Under the pieces are notes generated by a model. That model was not told where the DNA came from. It worked only from the letters and a program-made list of their open reading frames with translations, and did not search any database. From Natrialba swarupiae (lineage in GTDB: Archaea > Halobacteriota > Halobacteria > Halobacteriales > Natrialbaceae): a stretch of 55,282 bases of DNA. The position numbers and the translations under genes are program-made. The stretch lies in contig NZ_VTAW01000024.1 of assembly GCF_008245225.1 (NCBI RefSeq), positions 1 through 55,282 on the forward strand, read 5' to 3'. Below, piece by piece: positions 33,175-39,145 of the stretch. Position 1 is the stretch's first letter; each line of letters begins with the position of its first letter.

Positions 33175-35859
33175 ATGCCGAGTCATTACGATCACGCGCA
33201 GGTACAGGAGTTTTGGCAGTACGTTTGGGAGCGCGACGACGTCTACGAGCTTCCGGACGACGCGACGGACCCGACGTACGTCCTGGGGATGTTTCCGTAC
33301 ACCTCCGGGACGCTTCACATGGGCCACGTTCGCAACTACGCGATCACCGACGCCTACGCCCGATATCGGCGGATGTGTGGCGACGACGTCCTCCATCCGA
33401 TGGGGTGGGACGCGTTCGGTCTCCCCGCGGAGAACGCCGCCTACGAGCGTGCGAGCGATCCGGAGTCGTGGACCAAAGCGTGTATCCGCCGGATGCGAGA
33501 GGAACTCGAGACGCTGGGCTTTGGCTACGACTGGTCCCGAGAAATCACGACCTGTGAGCCGGAGTACTACCGGTGGAACCAGTGGCTGTTCAAACGCCTC
33601 TACGAGGCGGGGCTCGTCGAGTACGAGGCGGCGACGGTCAACTGGTGTCCCGACTGCGAGACGGTACTCGCCGACGCACAGGTCGACGAACGGGACGATG
33701 ATCGGATCTGCTGGCGGTGTGATACGCCTGTCGAGCAACGCGAACTCGACCAGTGGTTTTTCACGATCACGGAGTACGCCGAGGAGCTCCACGACGGTCT
33801 CGAGGACCTCGAGGGGTGGCCCGAGGGCGTCCGCGAGATTCAGCGAAACTGGATCGGCCGCCAGGAAGGCGCGAAAATCGACTTCGAACTGTCGGCACCT
33901 GTCACGGGCGACGAATCGAACGGGGCGATCGACGCTGTCGACGTCTTCAGCACCCGGCCGGAGACGATCTACGGGGCGACGTACCTCGCCGTCTCGCCCG
34001 GACACGACCTCGCCCGAGCGCTCGCCGACCGAGACGACGACATCGCCGACTACGTGGAGACGGTCCGCGAGCGCGGGCCCGACGAGGTCGGCTTCTCCGG
34101 CGTCGAGACCGACGTGACGGCGGTCCATCCCCTGACGGGAGCGAAACTGCCGGTGTACGTCGCCGGCTACGTGCTGGAGGACGTCGGGACGGGTGCCGTC
34201 ATGGGCGTTCCCGGCCACAACGAGCGCGATCACGGGTTCGCACTCGAGCACGACCTGCCGATCGAACGCGTGGTCGTCACCGGGACCGAAGACGACACTG
34301 CTGGTGACGAGACGTTCGAGGACGGACCGTACACGGGCGAGGGCATCCTCGAGGGAAGCGGCGAGTACGACGGCCTCGAGACCGAACGTGTGCGAGACCG
34401 GCTGATCGCGGACCACGACGCGATTCAGGCAGACGTCACCTATCGGCTCCGGGACTGGCTGATCTCGCGACAGCGCTACTGGGGGACGCCGATCCCGGTC
34501 GTCCACTGTGACGACTGTGGACACGTGCTCGTCCCCGACGAGGAGCTTCCGGTCGAACTCCCGGAGTTCGTCCGCACGACGGGGAACCCACTCGAGGAAC
34601 ACGACTCGTTCCGGCACACGACCTGTCCCGAGTGTGGCGGCCCCGCTCGCCGGGAGACCGACACGATGGACACGTTCGTCGACTCCTCGTGGTACTTCCT
34701 GCGATTTCTCTCCCCCGATCTCGCGGAGGCACCGTTCGACGCCGAACGTGCAGACGAGTGGCTCCCGATCGACGTCTACGTTGGCGGCGACGAGCACGCG
34801 ATCCTCCACCTGCTGTACATCCGGTTTATGACCCGTGCACTCGCCGATATCGGCCTGATCGAGAAGCGAGAGCCGGTCGAGCGACTCGTCAGTCAGGGGA
34901 CGGTGCTCTACGACGGCGAGAAGATGTCCACGTCGAAGGGCAACGTGGTCGCGCCCCTCGAGTACGGTGCGGAGACGACGCGGCTGTTCGTCCTCTCTGC
35001 GGCCCATCCCGAACAGGACTTCGAGTGGACCGCGAACAACGTTCGCGGTGCGTACGACCTCCAGCAGGACCTCTACCGGATGGCGACCGAGTTCGTCGAG
35101 GCGGCGGATACCCGCGTCGAACGACGCGACCACGACGAGTACATCGCACGCGAAATCGATCGAACCATCGTCGCGGTCACCGAGGAGTACGAACGGTTCC
35201 GGTTCCACCGTGTTGCGACCGAGATTCGAGAACTCGCGCGACTCCTTCGCCGGTATCTGGCGTACGATCGTCCACACGACGAGGTCTATCGTCGCGGTCT
35301 GTTGACCCTCGCGGCGTTGATATCACCGATGGCTCCTCACCTCGGCGAGGAACTGTGGAACAAGCTTCGGGGGGAAGGGCTGGTCGTGGAAGCCGACTGG
35401 CCGGAGCCGCAAACGGAGCCGTCGAACTACGCGAGCGAGCGTCGACTCGTCGAGCGAACCCTCGAGGACGTCCGCGACATCGTCGACGTGGCCGACATCG
35501 ACGAACCCCAGCGGATCGAACTCATCGTCGCTCCGGCGTGGACTTACCGCGTCGCGGCGGTGCTCACAGAAGAGACCGACGGAGACGTGGACGTCCCAGG
35601 CGTGGTCGATCGCGTATCCGCCACCGATCTCGAGACACCGCCTCGAGAGACCGTCGCGACGGTCGTCGGGACGCTACTCGATCGTGCGTCCAAAGGCGGC
35701 ATCGATCAACCCTTGACGTTCGACGACGAGCGAACGCTGCTCGAGCGTGCCCGGTGGCTGGTCGCCGACGAGTTCGGTGCGGACGTCGTCGTTCGCTGTG
35801 CGGAGGGCTCGGAGACGACGAAAGCCCGCCCGGGGAAGCCGGCGATCCGAATCGATTGA
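33175..35859 (+). CDS. leuS: Leucyl-tRNA synthetase, bacterial-type core
   Basis: An 894-residue class I synthetase. Catalytic motifs are HMGH (48-51) in PYTSGTLHMGHVRNY, MGWDAFGLPAENAA, NWCPDCETVLADAQV (zinc module), DSSWYFLRF and KMSTS (583-587). The order and wording follow bacterial LeuRS rather than the archaeal/eukaryotic form, while the C-terminal end (GADVVVRC...KARPGKPAIRID) looks archaeal. The CP1 editing domain has STRPETIYGATYLAV but GHNERDHGFA where bacterial enzymes have GHDxRD, so the editing Asp is Asn349. ATG 33175 fits a TATA at ~33133 better than the GTG at 33154. Some haloarchaea carry two LeuRS genes. Confidence 0.93.
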   Translation: MPSHYDHAQVQEFWQYVWERDDVYELPDDATDPTYVLGMFPYTSGTLHMGHVRNYAITDAYARYRRMCGDDVLHPMGWDAFGLPAENAAYERASDPESWTKACIRRMREELETLGFGYDWSREITTCEPEYYRWNQWLFKRLYEAGLVEYEAATVNWCPDCETVLADAQVDERDDDRICWRCDTPVEQRELDQWFFTITEYAEELHDGLEDLEGWPEGVREIQRNWIGRQEGAKIDFELSAPVTGDESNGAIDAVDVFSTRPETIYGATYLAVSPGHDLARALADRDDDIADYVETVRERGPDEVGFSGVETDVTAVHPLTGAKLPVYVAGYVLEDVGTGAVMGVPGHNERDHGFALEHDLPIERVVVTGTEDDTAGDETFEDGPYTGEGILEGSGEYDGLETERVRDRLIADHDAIQADVTYRLRDWLISRQRYWGTPIPVVHCDDCGHVLVPDEELPVELPEFVRTTGNPLEEHDSFRHTTCPECGGPARRETDTMDTFVDSSWYFLRFLSPDLAEAPFDAERADEWLPIDVYVGGDEHAILHLLYIRFMTRALADIGLIEKREPVERLVSQGTVLYDGEKMSTSKGNVVAPLEYGAETTRLFVLSAAHPEQDFEWTANNVRGAYDLQQDLYRMATEFVEAADTRVERRDHDEYIAREIDRTIVAVTEEYERFRFHRVATEIRELARLLRRYLAYDRPHDEVYRRGLLTLAALISPMAPHLGEELWNKLRGEGLVVEADWPEPQTEPSNYASERRLVERTLEDVRDIVDVADIDEPQRIELIVAPAWTYRVAAVLTEETDGDVDVPGVVDRVSATDLETPPRETVATVVGTLLDRASKGGIDQPLTFDDERTLLERARWLVADEFGADVVVRCAEGSETTKARPGKPAIRID

Positions 35860-35985: not shown

Positions 35986-37959
35986 TCAGGCCGACCTCGT
36001 CACCGTCGATTCGGGATGGGCCGGAAGCGAAAACGAGAACGTCGATCCCTCGCCTGGCTCGGATTCCACCCAGATGTCGCCGCCGTGACGTTCGACGATG
36101 CGTTCACAGAGCGCGAGGCCGATCCCGCTCCCGGAGCGCTCGTCGACCGAGTGGAGTCGTTCGAAAACACCGAATATCCGGTCCGTGTCGGCGGGATCGA
36201 TACCGATCCCGTCGTCGCTAACCGAGAGGATCCACTCGTCGCCGTCGCGTTTCGCGGAGACGTGAACCGTGGGCGGTTCGTCGTCTGCGTACTCGATCGC
36301 GTTCGAGAGCAGGTTCTGGAAGACCTGCCGTAACTGGTTGCCGTCGCCCTGAACGCGTGGAAGTGATTCGGCGGTGATCTCCGCATCGCTCTCCTCGATC
36401 TGAAACCACAGATCCTGCCGGACGTCTGTGAGCACGTCGTCCAGGTCGACCGGCTCGAACGGTCTACCCGCGCTCTCGACCCGTGAAAACGCCAGCAAGC
36501 CATCGATCATCTCGCGCATGCGGTCGGCACCGTCGACGGCGTACTCGATGAACTCCTCGCCGTCCTCGTCTAACTCGTCGCCGTAGCGGTCCTCGATCAA
36601 CCGGAGGTAGCTCGAGACCATCCGCAACGGCTCCTGGAGATCGTGAGAGGCCGCGTACGCGAACTGCTCGAGTCGTTCGTTCGACTCCTCGAGGCGTCGG
36701 CGATACTCCTTTCGCTCGGTAACGTCCCGGAAGTAGACCGACGCTCCCGTCTCGGAGGGATAGATCGTCACCTCGAGCCAGCGGTCGGCCAGATCGAAGT
36801 AGTGGACGTAGCTGGTCGGCTCCTGGGTGTCCATCGCCGTCTCGAAGCTCTCACGGACGATCTCCTGGTTCGCCGCCTCCGGAAACTGCTCCCAGAGCTG
36901 CTCTCCCAGGAGTTCGGACTCCGAGCGCTGGAGAAGTTCCTCCGCGCGGTCGTTGACGTGCGTATACCGAAACTCCTCGTCGAACGCACAGACAGCGTCG
37001 TCTATCCGTCCGAGAATCTCCTCCAGTCTGGTCTCGAGGTGCTTTCGTTCGGTGATATCCTGAAGGGCGTACACCGCGCCGTCGAACGAGCCGTCGGCGT
37101 CGAACAGTGGACGACAGTGTGTAGAGAGCCAGACGCGGGTTCCGTCGGGTTGGTCGAAGCCGATGACTTCGCCGTACACTGGCTCTTCCGTCTCTTCGAC
37201 GATCGAAAACGGAAGCGCTTCACTGGCCAGCGGATCGCCCGATTCGTCGACGAGATTCCACCGATCGTCGTCGTGTGTGTACGTCCGCAACTCCTCGATC
37301 GGTCGGCCGAGCAGCTCTTCGGCTCGCTCGTTTGCAAACACGTTCGTCCCGTCCGAATCGACGAGCGTGATTCCGATCGGAGTCGTTTCGACGATTTCGT
37401 CCGTTAGTTCCATCTCCTCGTGATGTCGTCGGTTCGCTCGTTCGTGCTCGATCGCAGAAGCGAGAACGTTCGCAACGGTCCTGACGAAGATCACGTCAGG
37501 GTCCGTGTACTCGGTATACGCCTCGTTGCGCACGTCGAGAACACCCCAGGGATCGTCCTCCGGTCCGACAACCACACTGATGCCACTTTGTACGTTGCGT
37601 TCGTATCCGCGATCGAGATCGGCGACGCGTTCGTCCGTTCGGACGTCTTCGACGACGACGGGGGCGTCGACCGTCAACGCCTGTCGGATGCGAGTGTTCG
37701 GATCCGGCACGACGACCGTCGACGTGGTGTCTTCGTCGACCGCGCCGCTGACACCCTGTACGTGAAACCGGCCGTCCGACAGCGACTCGAGGGCTACACA
37801 CGAATCCACCGACAGCGTCTCGGCGATCGCGTCGGTGGCTCGCTCGAGCAGCTCCTCGAGTGGCCCCTCCGACAGCGCGAGATCGGAGAGGTCCGCGACC
37901 AGTTGCTGTTGGCGGTCCCGACGCTCGAGTTCCGAGCCGGTTCCGTTGGGCGACGCCAT
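35986..37959 (-). CDS. Sensor histidine kinase (GAF-PAS-PAS-HisKA-HATPase)
   Basis: A 657-residue soluble kinase with no membrane helix. A GAF domain covers about 15-175, PAS domains about 185-310 and 315-425 (ITERKHLE and VTERKEYR mark their ends), then HisKA with the phosphorylated His in FAYAASHDLQEPLRMVSSYL. The ATP-binding domain has QNLLSNAIEYA (N box), SDDGIGIDP (G1) and SGSGIGLALCERI (G2). No response-regulator gene is adjacent, which is common in haloarchaea. The signal is unknown; the PAS/GAF set suggests light, redox or a small ligand. Confidence 0.93.
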   Translation of the reverse strand: MASPNGTGSELERRDRQQQLVADLSDLALSEGPLEELLERATDAIAETLSVDSCVALESLSDGRFHVQGVSGAVDEDTTSTVVVPDPNTRIRQALTVDAPVVVEDVRTDERVADLDRGYERNVQSGISVVVGPEDDPWGVLDVRNEAYTEYTDPDVIFVRTVANVLASAIEHERANRRHHEEMELTDEIVETTPIGITLVDSDGTNVFANERAEELLGRPIEELRTYTHDDDRWNLVDESGDPLASEALPFSIVEETEEPVYGEVIGFDQPDGTRVWLSTHCRPLFDADGSFDGAVYALQDITERKHLETRLEEILGRIDDAVCAFDEEFRYTHVNDRAEELLQRSESELLGEQLWEQFPEAANQEIVRESFETAMDTQEPTSYVHYFDLADRWLEVTIYPSETGASVYFRDVTERKEYRRRLEESNERLEQFAYAASHDLQEPLRMVSSYLRLIEDRYGDELDEDGEEFIEYAVDGADRMREMIDGLLAFSRVESAGRPFEPVDLDDVLTDVRQDLWFQIEESDAEITAESLPRVQGDGNQLRQVFQNLLSNAIEYADDEPPTVHVSAKRDGDEWILSVSDDGIGIDPADTDRIFGVFERLHSVDERSGSGIGLALCERIVERHGGDIWVESEPGEGSTFSFSLPAHPESTVTRSA

Positions 37960-38008
37960 TTTGACTGGACTAGTCGTGAGCCACGCGTAAAGAGGCTCCG
38001 CTGGACAG

Positions 38009-38605
38009 TCACACCACGAGCATCGAACTGAACTCGTAGCTGTAGATGTGGTTGAGCATCAGGTATGTAACGATTCCGAGAAAGAGACTCAGAATCCACG
38101 AGCCGGCGGCGATGCGCCCGACTCGAGCGTGAGAGGTCTCCCGAAGCTCCGAGGGAGTATGTGTGAGCCCGAGGATCAACGCGTAGAGGACGACCGGAAC
38201 GGCGACGATCGAGAGGACGATGTGGATCCCCAGCATGATCAGGTAGGCGTAGTAGACGGCATCCGGCCCGACGAAGAGTTTCTCGCCGCCCCCGCCGACG
38301 CGAATCAGATAGACGACCAGAAAGAAGATGATGAGTACGAACCCACCGACCATCGCGAACCGATGTTTCTCGATTTCGTTCGTTCGGATCCAGTACCACC
38401 CGAGTACGAGGAGAACCAGCGTCACCGAGTTGATGGCTGCGATCGCGTGGGTAAGTGCGTTTATCTGTGCGTTCGTGAGATCCGGATAGATCGGAATATC
38501 AAGGACGAACGTCCCGATAACCAACGCGTATCCGACGATCGTCAACAGGATCGTAACTCCGATCGGGCGCTCCCGAAGTCGCCGTCTCGCACCCGCAGTT
38601 GCCAT
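38009..38605 (-). CDS. DUF420 membrane protein (CtaM-like)
   Basis: A 198-residue protein with five membrane helices. NAQINALTHAIAAINSVTLVLLVLGWYWIR, EIEKHRFAM and the His-bearing helices (LMLGIHIVLSIVAVPVVLYALILG, SHARVGRIAAGSWILSLFLGIVTYLML) match DUF420. Bacterial CtaM of this family is needed to mature heme-copper oxidases, so the haloarchaeal protein probably assists oxidase assembly along with the CtaA-CtaB fusion at 43945-45366. The sensor kinase gene follows 49 bp downstream on the same strand. Confidence 0.85.
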   Translation of the reverse strand: MATAGARRRLRERPIGVTILLTIVGYALVIGTFVLDIPIYPDLTNAQINALTHAIAAINSVTLVLLVLGWYWIRTNEIEKHRFAMVGGFVLIIFFLVVYLIRVGGGGEKLFVGPDAVYYAYLIMLGIHIVLSIVAVPVVLYALILGLTHTPSELRETSHARVGRIAAGSWILSLFLGIVTYLMLNHIYSYEFSSMLVV

Positions 38606-38656
38606 TGGTCTCGATTGGACGGGACGTCGTATCTGTCTTGCTGTTTCCGAACGCGA

Positions 38657-38944
38657 TCAGTCGGAGTCCCCGTCGGTGGTGTTCGCTGTGAGCGCGACCG
38701 TCCCGTCCTCGCCGACGGTGACCTCGTATCCACAGAACTGAAACGAGACTTCACAGTCCGTCGTGGGCCGATTGGCGCACAACGAATCGAGTGCATCCGG
38801 GTCGACGACCGCGTGGAGCGGTTCGTACTCCGGCGGTTGCAACTCGTCCGGTGAAATCCCCTCCGCCTCCGCGACTGCCTCGACGACCGCACGGCTCGGT
38901 GGTTTTCGAACGGTTTCGCCAGCATTGTCGCCACCACCATCCAT
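38657..38944 (-). CDS. HalOD1 output-domain protein
   Basis: A 95-residue acidic protein. PPSRAVVEAVAEAEGISPDE, PPEYEPLHAVVDPDALDSL and VSFQFCGYEVTVGEDGTVAL form the whole HalOD1 domain, found only in halophilic archaea as a stand-alone protein or attached to response regulators. Its action is undefined; a signalling output role is assumed from domain combinations. The start at ATG 38944 lies about 30 bp after a TTTTATT box on the minus strand (near 38976). Confidence 0.82.
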   Translation of the reverse strand: MDGGGDNAGETVRKPPSRAVVEAVAEAEGISPDELQPPEYEPLHAVVDPDALDSLCANRPTTDCEVSFQFCGYEVTVGEDGTVALTANTTDGDSD

Positions 38945-39145
38945 CGTAATGCTCGCTTTCGAACCCCATCGAATAAAACTGTCCTTCTCCGTTTCGATTC
39001 GGGTGTCCGCCGACGTGAGAGCCTTCGATATCGAAGGATAAATCGTCCGATCCGATTCGGCCCGGAGTGCGATGGTCCGTCGATCCACGGGGAGAGACAG
39101 CGTTACCTCAGCAATATATCAACTTTCGGTGGCGACGGCGTCGAA

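Follow-up and report, generated by a model that had tools for sequence, protein, structure and literature searches.

Bacterial-type leucyl-tRNA synthetases (LeuRS) of haloarchaea occur in two forms, B' and B'' (Andam et al. 2012, PMC3436685), and that study depicts LeuRS-B'' as a divergent bacterial-type enzyme that is sister to B' and often present as a second copy. Halobacterial LeuRS2, as summarized in PMC9437257 (from Fang et al. 2014), shows drastically reduced aminoacylation with preserved tRNA affinity, and its function is given as unknown. The same source describes the Sulfolobaceae enzyme LeuRS-I (Weitzel et al. 2020), an archaeal LeuRS paralogue with impaired charging, raises the possibility that LeuRS2 and LeuRS-I have roles beyond protein synthesis, and describes IleRS2 as a low-activity, mupirocin-resistant IleRS. 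Here, we analyze a gene from a 55,282-nucleotide stretch of Natrialba swarupiae DNA (contig NZ_VTAW01000024.1, referred to below as the window) that belongs with these enzymes. It encodes an intact, selected, accessory chimeric LeuRS that retains the canonical editing aspartate. Like LeuRS2 as described there, it is a second LeuRS with a bacterial-type body and an archaeal tRNA-binding part, and it resembles LeuRS-I in being an archaeal LeuRS paralogue, although the CP1 domain is described as disrupted in LeuRS-I and is complete here. The features discussed are collected in Table 1.

Table 1. Features of the leuS-B'' gene in the window (Eco, E. coli; Tth, T. thermophilus)
Feature	Residues	Position	Strand	Basis
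leuS-B'' gene, chimeric LeuRS	894 aa + stop	33175..35859	+	Open frame; TIGR00396; B'' clade support 100
HIGH motif HMGH	48-51	33316..33327	+	Aligns to Eco H49/H52; kept in all B'' covering it
Ala at CP1-hairpin Glu169 position	168	33676..33678	+	All 116 B'' have Ala; all 55 B' and all 65 others have Glu
CP1 editing domain	224-411	33844..34407	+	PF13603, profile positions 1-181 of 185
Thr-rich editing segment STRPET	259-264	33949..33966	+	T247S, D251E; T248, R249, T252 kept
Asn349 (codon AAC), equivalent to Eco Asp342, not Asp345	349	34219..34221	+	Gap-free alignment
Asp352, amino-group-binding Asp, equivalent to Eco Asp345/Tth Asp347	352	34228..34230	+	Alignment; invariant in 36 aligned proteins
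KMSTS; Thr586 replaces second KMSKS Lys	583-587	34921..34935	+	Second Lys kept in 22/116 B'' against 54/55 B'
Anticodon-binding domain	654-775	35134..35499	+	PF08264
C-terminal part, archaeal type	776-894	35500..35856	+	Archaeal LeuRS models; 1wz2

Chimeric architecture, placement and genomic setting

The initial annotation had described a bacterial-type LeuRS layout in an archaeon, and this was borne out: the reading frame contains PYTSGTLHMGHVRNY, GTGAVMGVPGHNERD and KMSTS, it scores 806 bits against the bacterial model TIGR00396 (leuS_bact, cut-off 548), and the host belongs to the class Halobacteria, in which relatives carrying the gene include Natrinema, Natronolimnohabitans, and Halorhabdus. 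Alignment to the E. coli enzyme located equivalents of the core catalytic residues M40, Y43, H49, H52, D80, E532, H533, and H537. The C-terminal domain is not of the bacterial type, as archaeal LeuRS models cover residues 529-893 up to the models' ends, P. horikoshii LeuRS (1wz2) matches residues 524-893, and the matches of bacterial relatives end near residue 743-822. The product is a chimera in which the synthetic and CP1 parts are bacterial-type and the C-terminal part is archaeal-type, and the leucine-specific insert is absent ahead of KMSTS (QGTVLYDGEKMSTS). An AlphaFold2 model (mean pLDDT 89.3, with CP1 mostly at high confidence) gave Z values of about 42-48 in whole-fold alignments with solved bacterial LeuRS. 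One of these is T. thermophilus 1obc, which has a post-transfer editing analogue bound and aligned over 727 residues at Z 44.4 and 3.8 Å, and this alignment of the predicted structure supports a bacterial LeuRS fold. The T. thermophilus and E. coli enzymes (1h3n, 4aq7) share the fold over about 720 residues, together with HIGH, CP1, and Asp345, but differ from the window enzyme in its archaeal-type C-terminus, its lack of the leucine-specific insert, and its B'' substitutions.

In a quick mixture-model tree of 66 proteins, the window LeuRS fell inside a B'' clade (support 100) that is monophyletic, separate from B', and sister to most B' sequences, in agreement with the two forms published in PMC3436685. 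As the initial annotation had anticipated, its genome encodes another LeuRS, which is of the archaeal type (LeuRS-A, contig C40), and many genomes of the class likewise pair two LeuRS genes. A B' LeuRS was not found in this genome, and a partner of the LeuRS-A type in place of B' sets the gene apart from the LeuRS-B'' of PMC3436685. Of 391 Halobacteria genomes, 106 gave the B'' pattern, 269 gave the B' pattern, and 141 had LeuRS-A. B' accompanied B'' in 82 genomes and LeuRS-A was present in 23 of the other 24, so that 105 of the 106 carry B' or A, which implies that B'' is accessory and able to pair with either. Neither was found in the one remaining B''-bearing genome (G359), a draft that is 89% complete.

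Several other arrangements of LeuRS genes were seen. In G222, from another family, LeuRS-A and LeuRS-B'' lie a few kilobases apart on contig C1 (1251204-1254005 and 1258055; L279). In four genomes (G146, G211, G227, and G319), the B' editing-motif pattern matched twice, which suggests that each has two B'-like copies. A LeuRS-A that has diverged to about 60% identity with the others is encoded in G050 (C4:96071-98848, L266), G053, and G261 (L267), and in G050 and G053 it co-occurs with both B' and B''. B'-like enzymes from Ods04, a euryarchaeal MAG (L052), and Halorutilus salinus (L053) branch below the B'/B'' split, which suggests that the split came after these lineages had separated. Full-length matches that include the archaeal-type C-terminus (L054, L055, L056, L058, L059, L064, L067, and L078) come from DPANN archaea (Woesearchaeota, Micrarchaeota, and Nanohaloarchaeota) and a Methanosarcinales MAG. 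In the quick tree, the LeuRS of these hosts group with the B forms of haloarchaea and fall outside the bacterial sequences, which form a monophyletic clade, and the donor termed unsampled in PMC3436685 may therefore lie among such archaea.

At loci of the host family, a small ORF and a DUF420 gene recur 3' of leuS-B'', with ABC-transporter-like genes farther on; these neighbors are all absent at loci from other families, and no leucine- or tRNA-related genes were seen among the recurrent ones. An attempt to derive a function from the neighborhood was dropped, as the recurrent small ORF and DUF420 gene suggest no pathway. In the window, a GAF/PAS histidine kinase gene (35986-37959) separates leuS-B'' from the small ORF and DUF420 gene, whose orientation is opposite to that in other family members, and this arrangement (35986-39102) is a local inversion or insertion.

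The editing site

The initial annotation had placed Asn349 at the position of the aspartate that binds the amino group of mischarged amino acids in CP1, and from mutants of that aspartate, E. coli Asp345, it had suggested possibly altered proofreading. The asparagine is indeed encoded at the codon given. In the E. coli motif GHDQRD, with the numbering verified via T247, T248, and T252, the first aspartate is residue 342 and the second residue 345, the published editing residue; counting along the 1h3n alignment gives Asp344 and Asp347 as the T. thermophilus equivalents. The window motif, GHNERD, aligns to GHDQRD without gaps, and Asn349 thus corresponds to Asp342 of E. coli (Asp344 of T. thermophilus) and Asp352 to Asp345 (Asp347). 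The substitution lies three positions away from the canonical residue, the sequence alignment places a different aspartate, Asp352, in the pocket, and conclusions from Asp345 mutants do not carry over to Asn349. All five editing residues considered here (T248, R249, T252, R344, and D345) are retained. Two other synthetases of this genome also differ at position 342, LeuRS-A having Ser (AHSPDD) and IleRS having Gly (GHGEED), and both keep the second aspartate. Human Asp399, the equivalent of Asp345, forms a salt bridge with the amino group (PMC7229842), and the IleRS counterpart of LeuRS Asp345 is Asp342 (PMC9023258); a search for literature on contacts of Asp342/Asp344 returned nothing usable.

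Asn349 is a marker of the clade. Position 342 is Asn in 115 and Asp in 1 of 116 B'' sequences, and it is Asp in all 121 comparison LeuRS (B' in 55 cases, bacterial or DPANN in 66). The DNA pattern used to collect 30 of the B'' loci itself demands Asn342 and Asp345, which biases the counts at both positions for these loci. Protein searches supplied the other 86, and counts at position 169, position 248, and KMSKS are free of this selection. Parsimony assigns two changes to position 342, which fits a single gain followed by a single reversal, and on these alignments Asn349 is real and fixed in the clade beyond chance.

Editing residues do change in other members of the clade. Along the tree, T248, R249, T252, R344, and D345 changed 11 times in B'' and never in B' or bacteria. 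Losses in single B'' enzymes are D345G (L031), T252I (L137), T248K (L041), T248A with R249E (L135), and T248I (L250), and T248A is found in L139, L141, L142, L160, L226, L227, and L231. To judge from their sequences, these 12 enzymes are better candidates for a loss of editing than the window LeuRS. The suggestion that the gene is a second LeuRS with altered proofreading therefore fared unevenly: the second, divergent LeuRS is present and the argument from Asn349 fails, but altered proofreading in B'' is possible through clade-wide relaxed substitution at the other editing residues. The best reading is that Asn349 does not abolish editing and that editing in B'' is probably under relaxed constraint. 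In the B' editing motif, the conserved Met336 is replaced by Tyr (GALYAVP) in 19 proteins (most of L172-L174, L176, and L184-L198) and by Phe in L050.

Activation-site substitutions and selection

The Ala at position 169 throughout B'' bears on amino acid activation. In the Neisseria enzyme, the CP1 hairpin can no longer close when E169G is introduced, and the efficiency of leucine activation falls 24-fold while the transfer step is not slowed, and K637, the second KMSKS lysine, touches the ATP phosphates (PMC9424281). The B'' change, E169A, differs from the measured E169G, and a clade that has carried Ala since its origin may compensate for it. The second KMSKS lysine is kept in 22 and lost in 94 of the 116 B'' sequences, compared with 54 of 55 B' sequences that keep it. 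Haloarchaeal LeuRS-A, however, carries KMSSS, which indicates that losing this lysine alone need not weaken the enzyme and rules out KMSTS as proof of inactivity. The HIGH motif, D80, E532, H533, and H537 are retained throughout B'', one sequence being without its N-terminal part. No description of the fixed B'' substitutions E169A, D342N, D640E, and M568T was found in the available text of PMC3436685.

In nine genomes with both forms, protein divergence of B'' was 1.95 times that of B' (36 of 36 matched pairs), the excess being greatest, at 2.96 times, in the second catalytic segment. For 45 pairs of close B'' sequences, the median dN/dS was nevertheless 0.13, which indicates that the protein is maintained and, with the intact frame, rules out a pseudogene. 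For CP1 the difference was modest, with a dN/dS of 0.20 in B'' compared with 0.15 in B'.

Possible roles of the second LeuRS

With a probability of roughly 0.72, the gene is an accessory haloarchaeal B'' LeuRS, very probably LeuRS2, serving as an attenuated spare enzyme that has kept the canonical editing aspartate. Its identity with LeuRS2 is probable, as we infer it from the match to the description in PMC9437257, and the low aminoacylation with preserved tRNA affinity reported there fits the site changes in B''. In such an enzyme, Ala168 would remove a hairpin contact that stabilizes the closed activation state and thereby slow formation of Leu-AMP, and Thr586 would, perhaps, remove a phosphate-binding lysine, with slower leucine activation as the result. 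The enzyme would still bind tRNA-Leu, and the other LeuRS would carry most charging. Editing probably persists in a less constrained form, and Asn349, fixed next to the catalytic aspartate, may tune the pocket. The cell might benefit from a condition-specific isozyme, from tolerance of an inhibitor, or from a form of regulation that depends on tRNA-Leu.

That the enzyme is editing-defective because Asp345 became Asn, as the initial annotation read it, is very improbable. An asparagine does stand in the GHxxRD motif, and some B'' enzymes have lost editing residues, Asp345 itself in one, but the asparagine aligns to Asp342, a position where LeuRS-A naturally has Ser and IleRS has Gly, and T248, R249, T252, and D345 are intact. 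A duplicate decaying toward loss is less credible still: faster divergence than B' and the sporadic loss of editing residues would fit it, and yet frames are intact across many genomes, dN/dS is about 0.13, and B'' has been retained clade-wide over several families.

It is possible, though tentative, that B'' no longer serves mainly in charging and is a tRNA-Leu-binding or Leu-AMP-forming factor outside translation whose proofreading has been freed from selection. On that account, E169A and the altered KMSKS would have weakened activation in B'' and become fixed long ago, and the enzyme would have been retained for some task that depends on tRNA-Leu but is not bulk charging. The accessory distribution, the two activation-site changes, and the concentration of editing-residue changes in B'' are consistent with this, as is the view in PMC9437257 that LeuRS2 and LeuRS-I possibly act outside protein synthesis. 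The retained HIGH motif and catalytic residues, the low dN/dS in the catalytic segments, the editing residues kept in most B'' enzymes, and the lack of a conserved neighbor pointing to another pathway argue against it. An inhibitor-tolerant or condition-specific isozyme that would charge tRNA-Leu when the main LeuRS is blocked seems rather unlikely. Its active-site changes, accessory distribution, and low activity would resemble the case of IleRS2 as outlined in PMC9437257, but no resistance or biosynthesis gene was seen adjoining, the recurrent neighbors in the family being the small ORF and the DUF420 gene.

An attenuated spare LeuRS bears on why many haloarchaea keep two LeuRS, which PMC9437257 treats as an open question. 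The corrected residue assignment spares experimenters work on the wrong aspartate, and the sporadic editing-residue losses mark which B'' enzymes merit assay. With the clade-fixed E169A, a single residue becomes a hypothesis for why LeuRS2 has low activity. The gene described here is thus of a known kind, but its clade carries informative substitutions that provide a testable account of that reported low activity.
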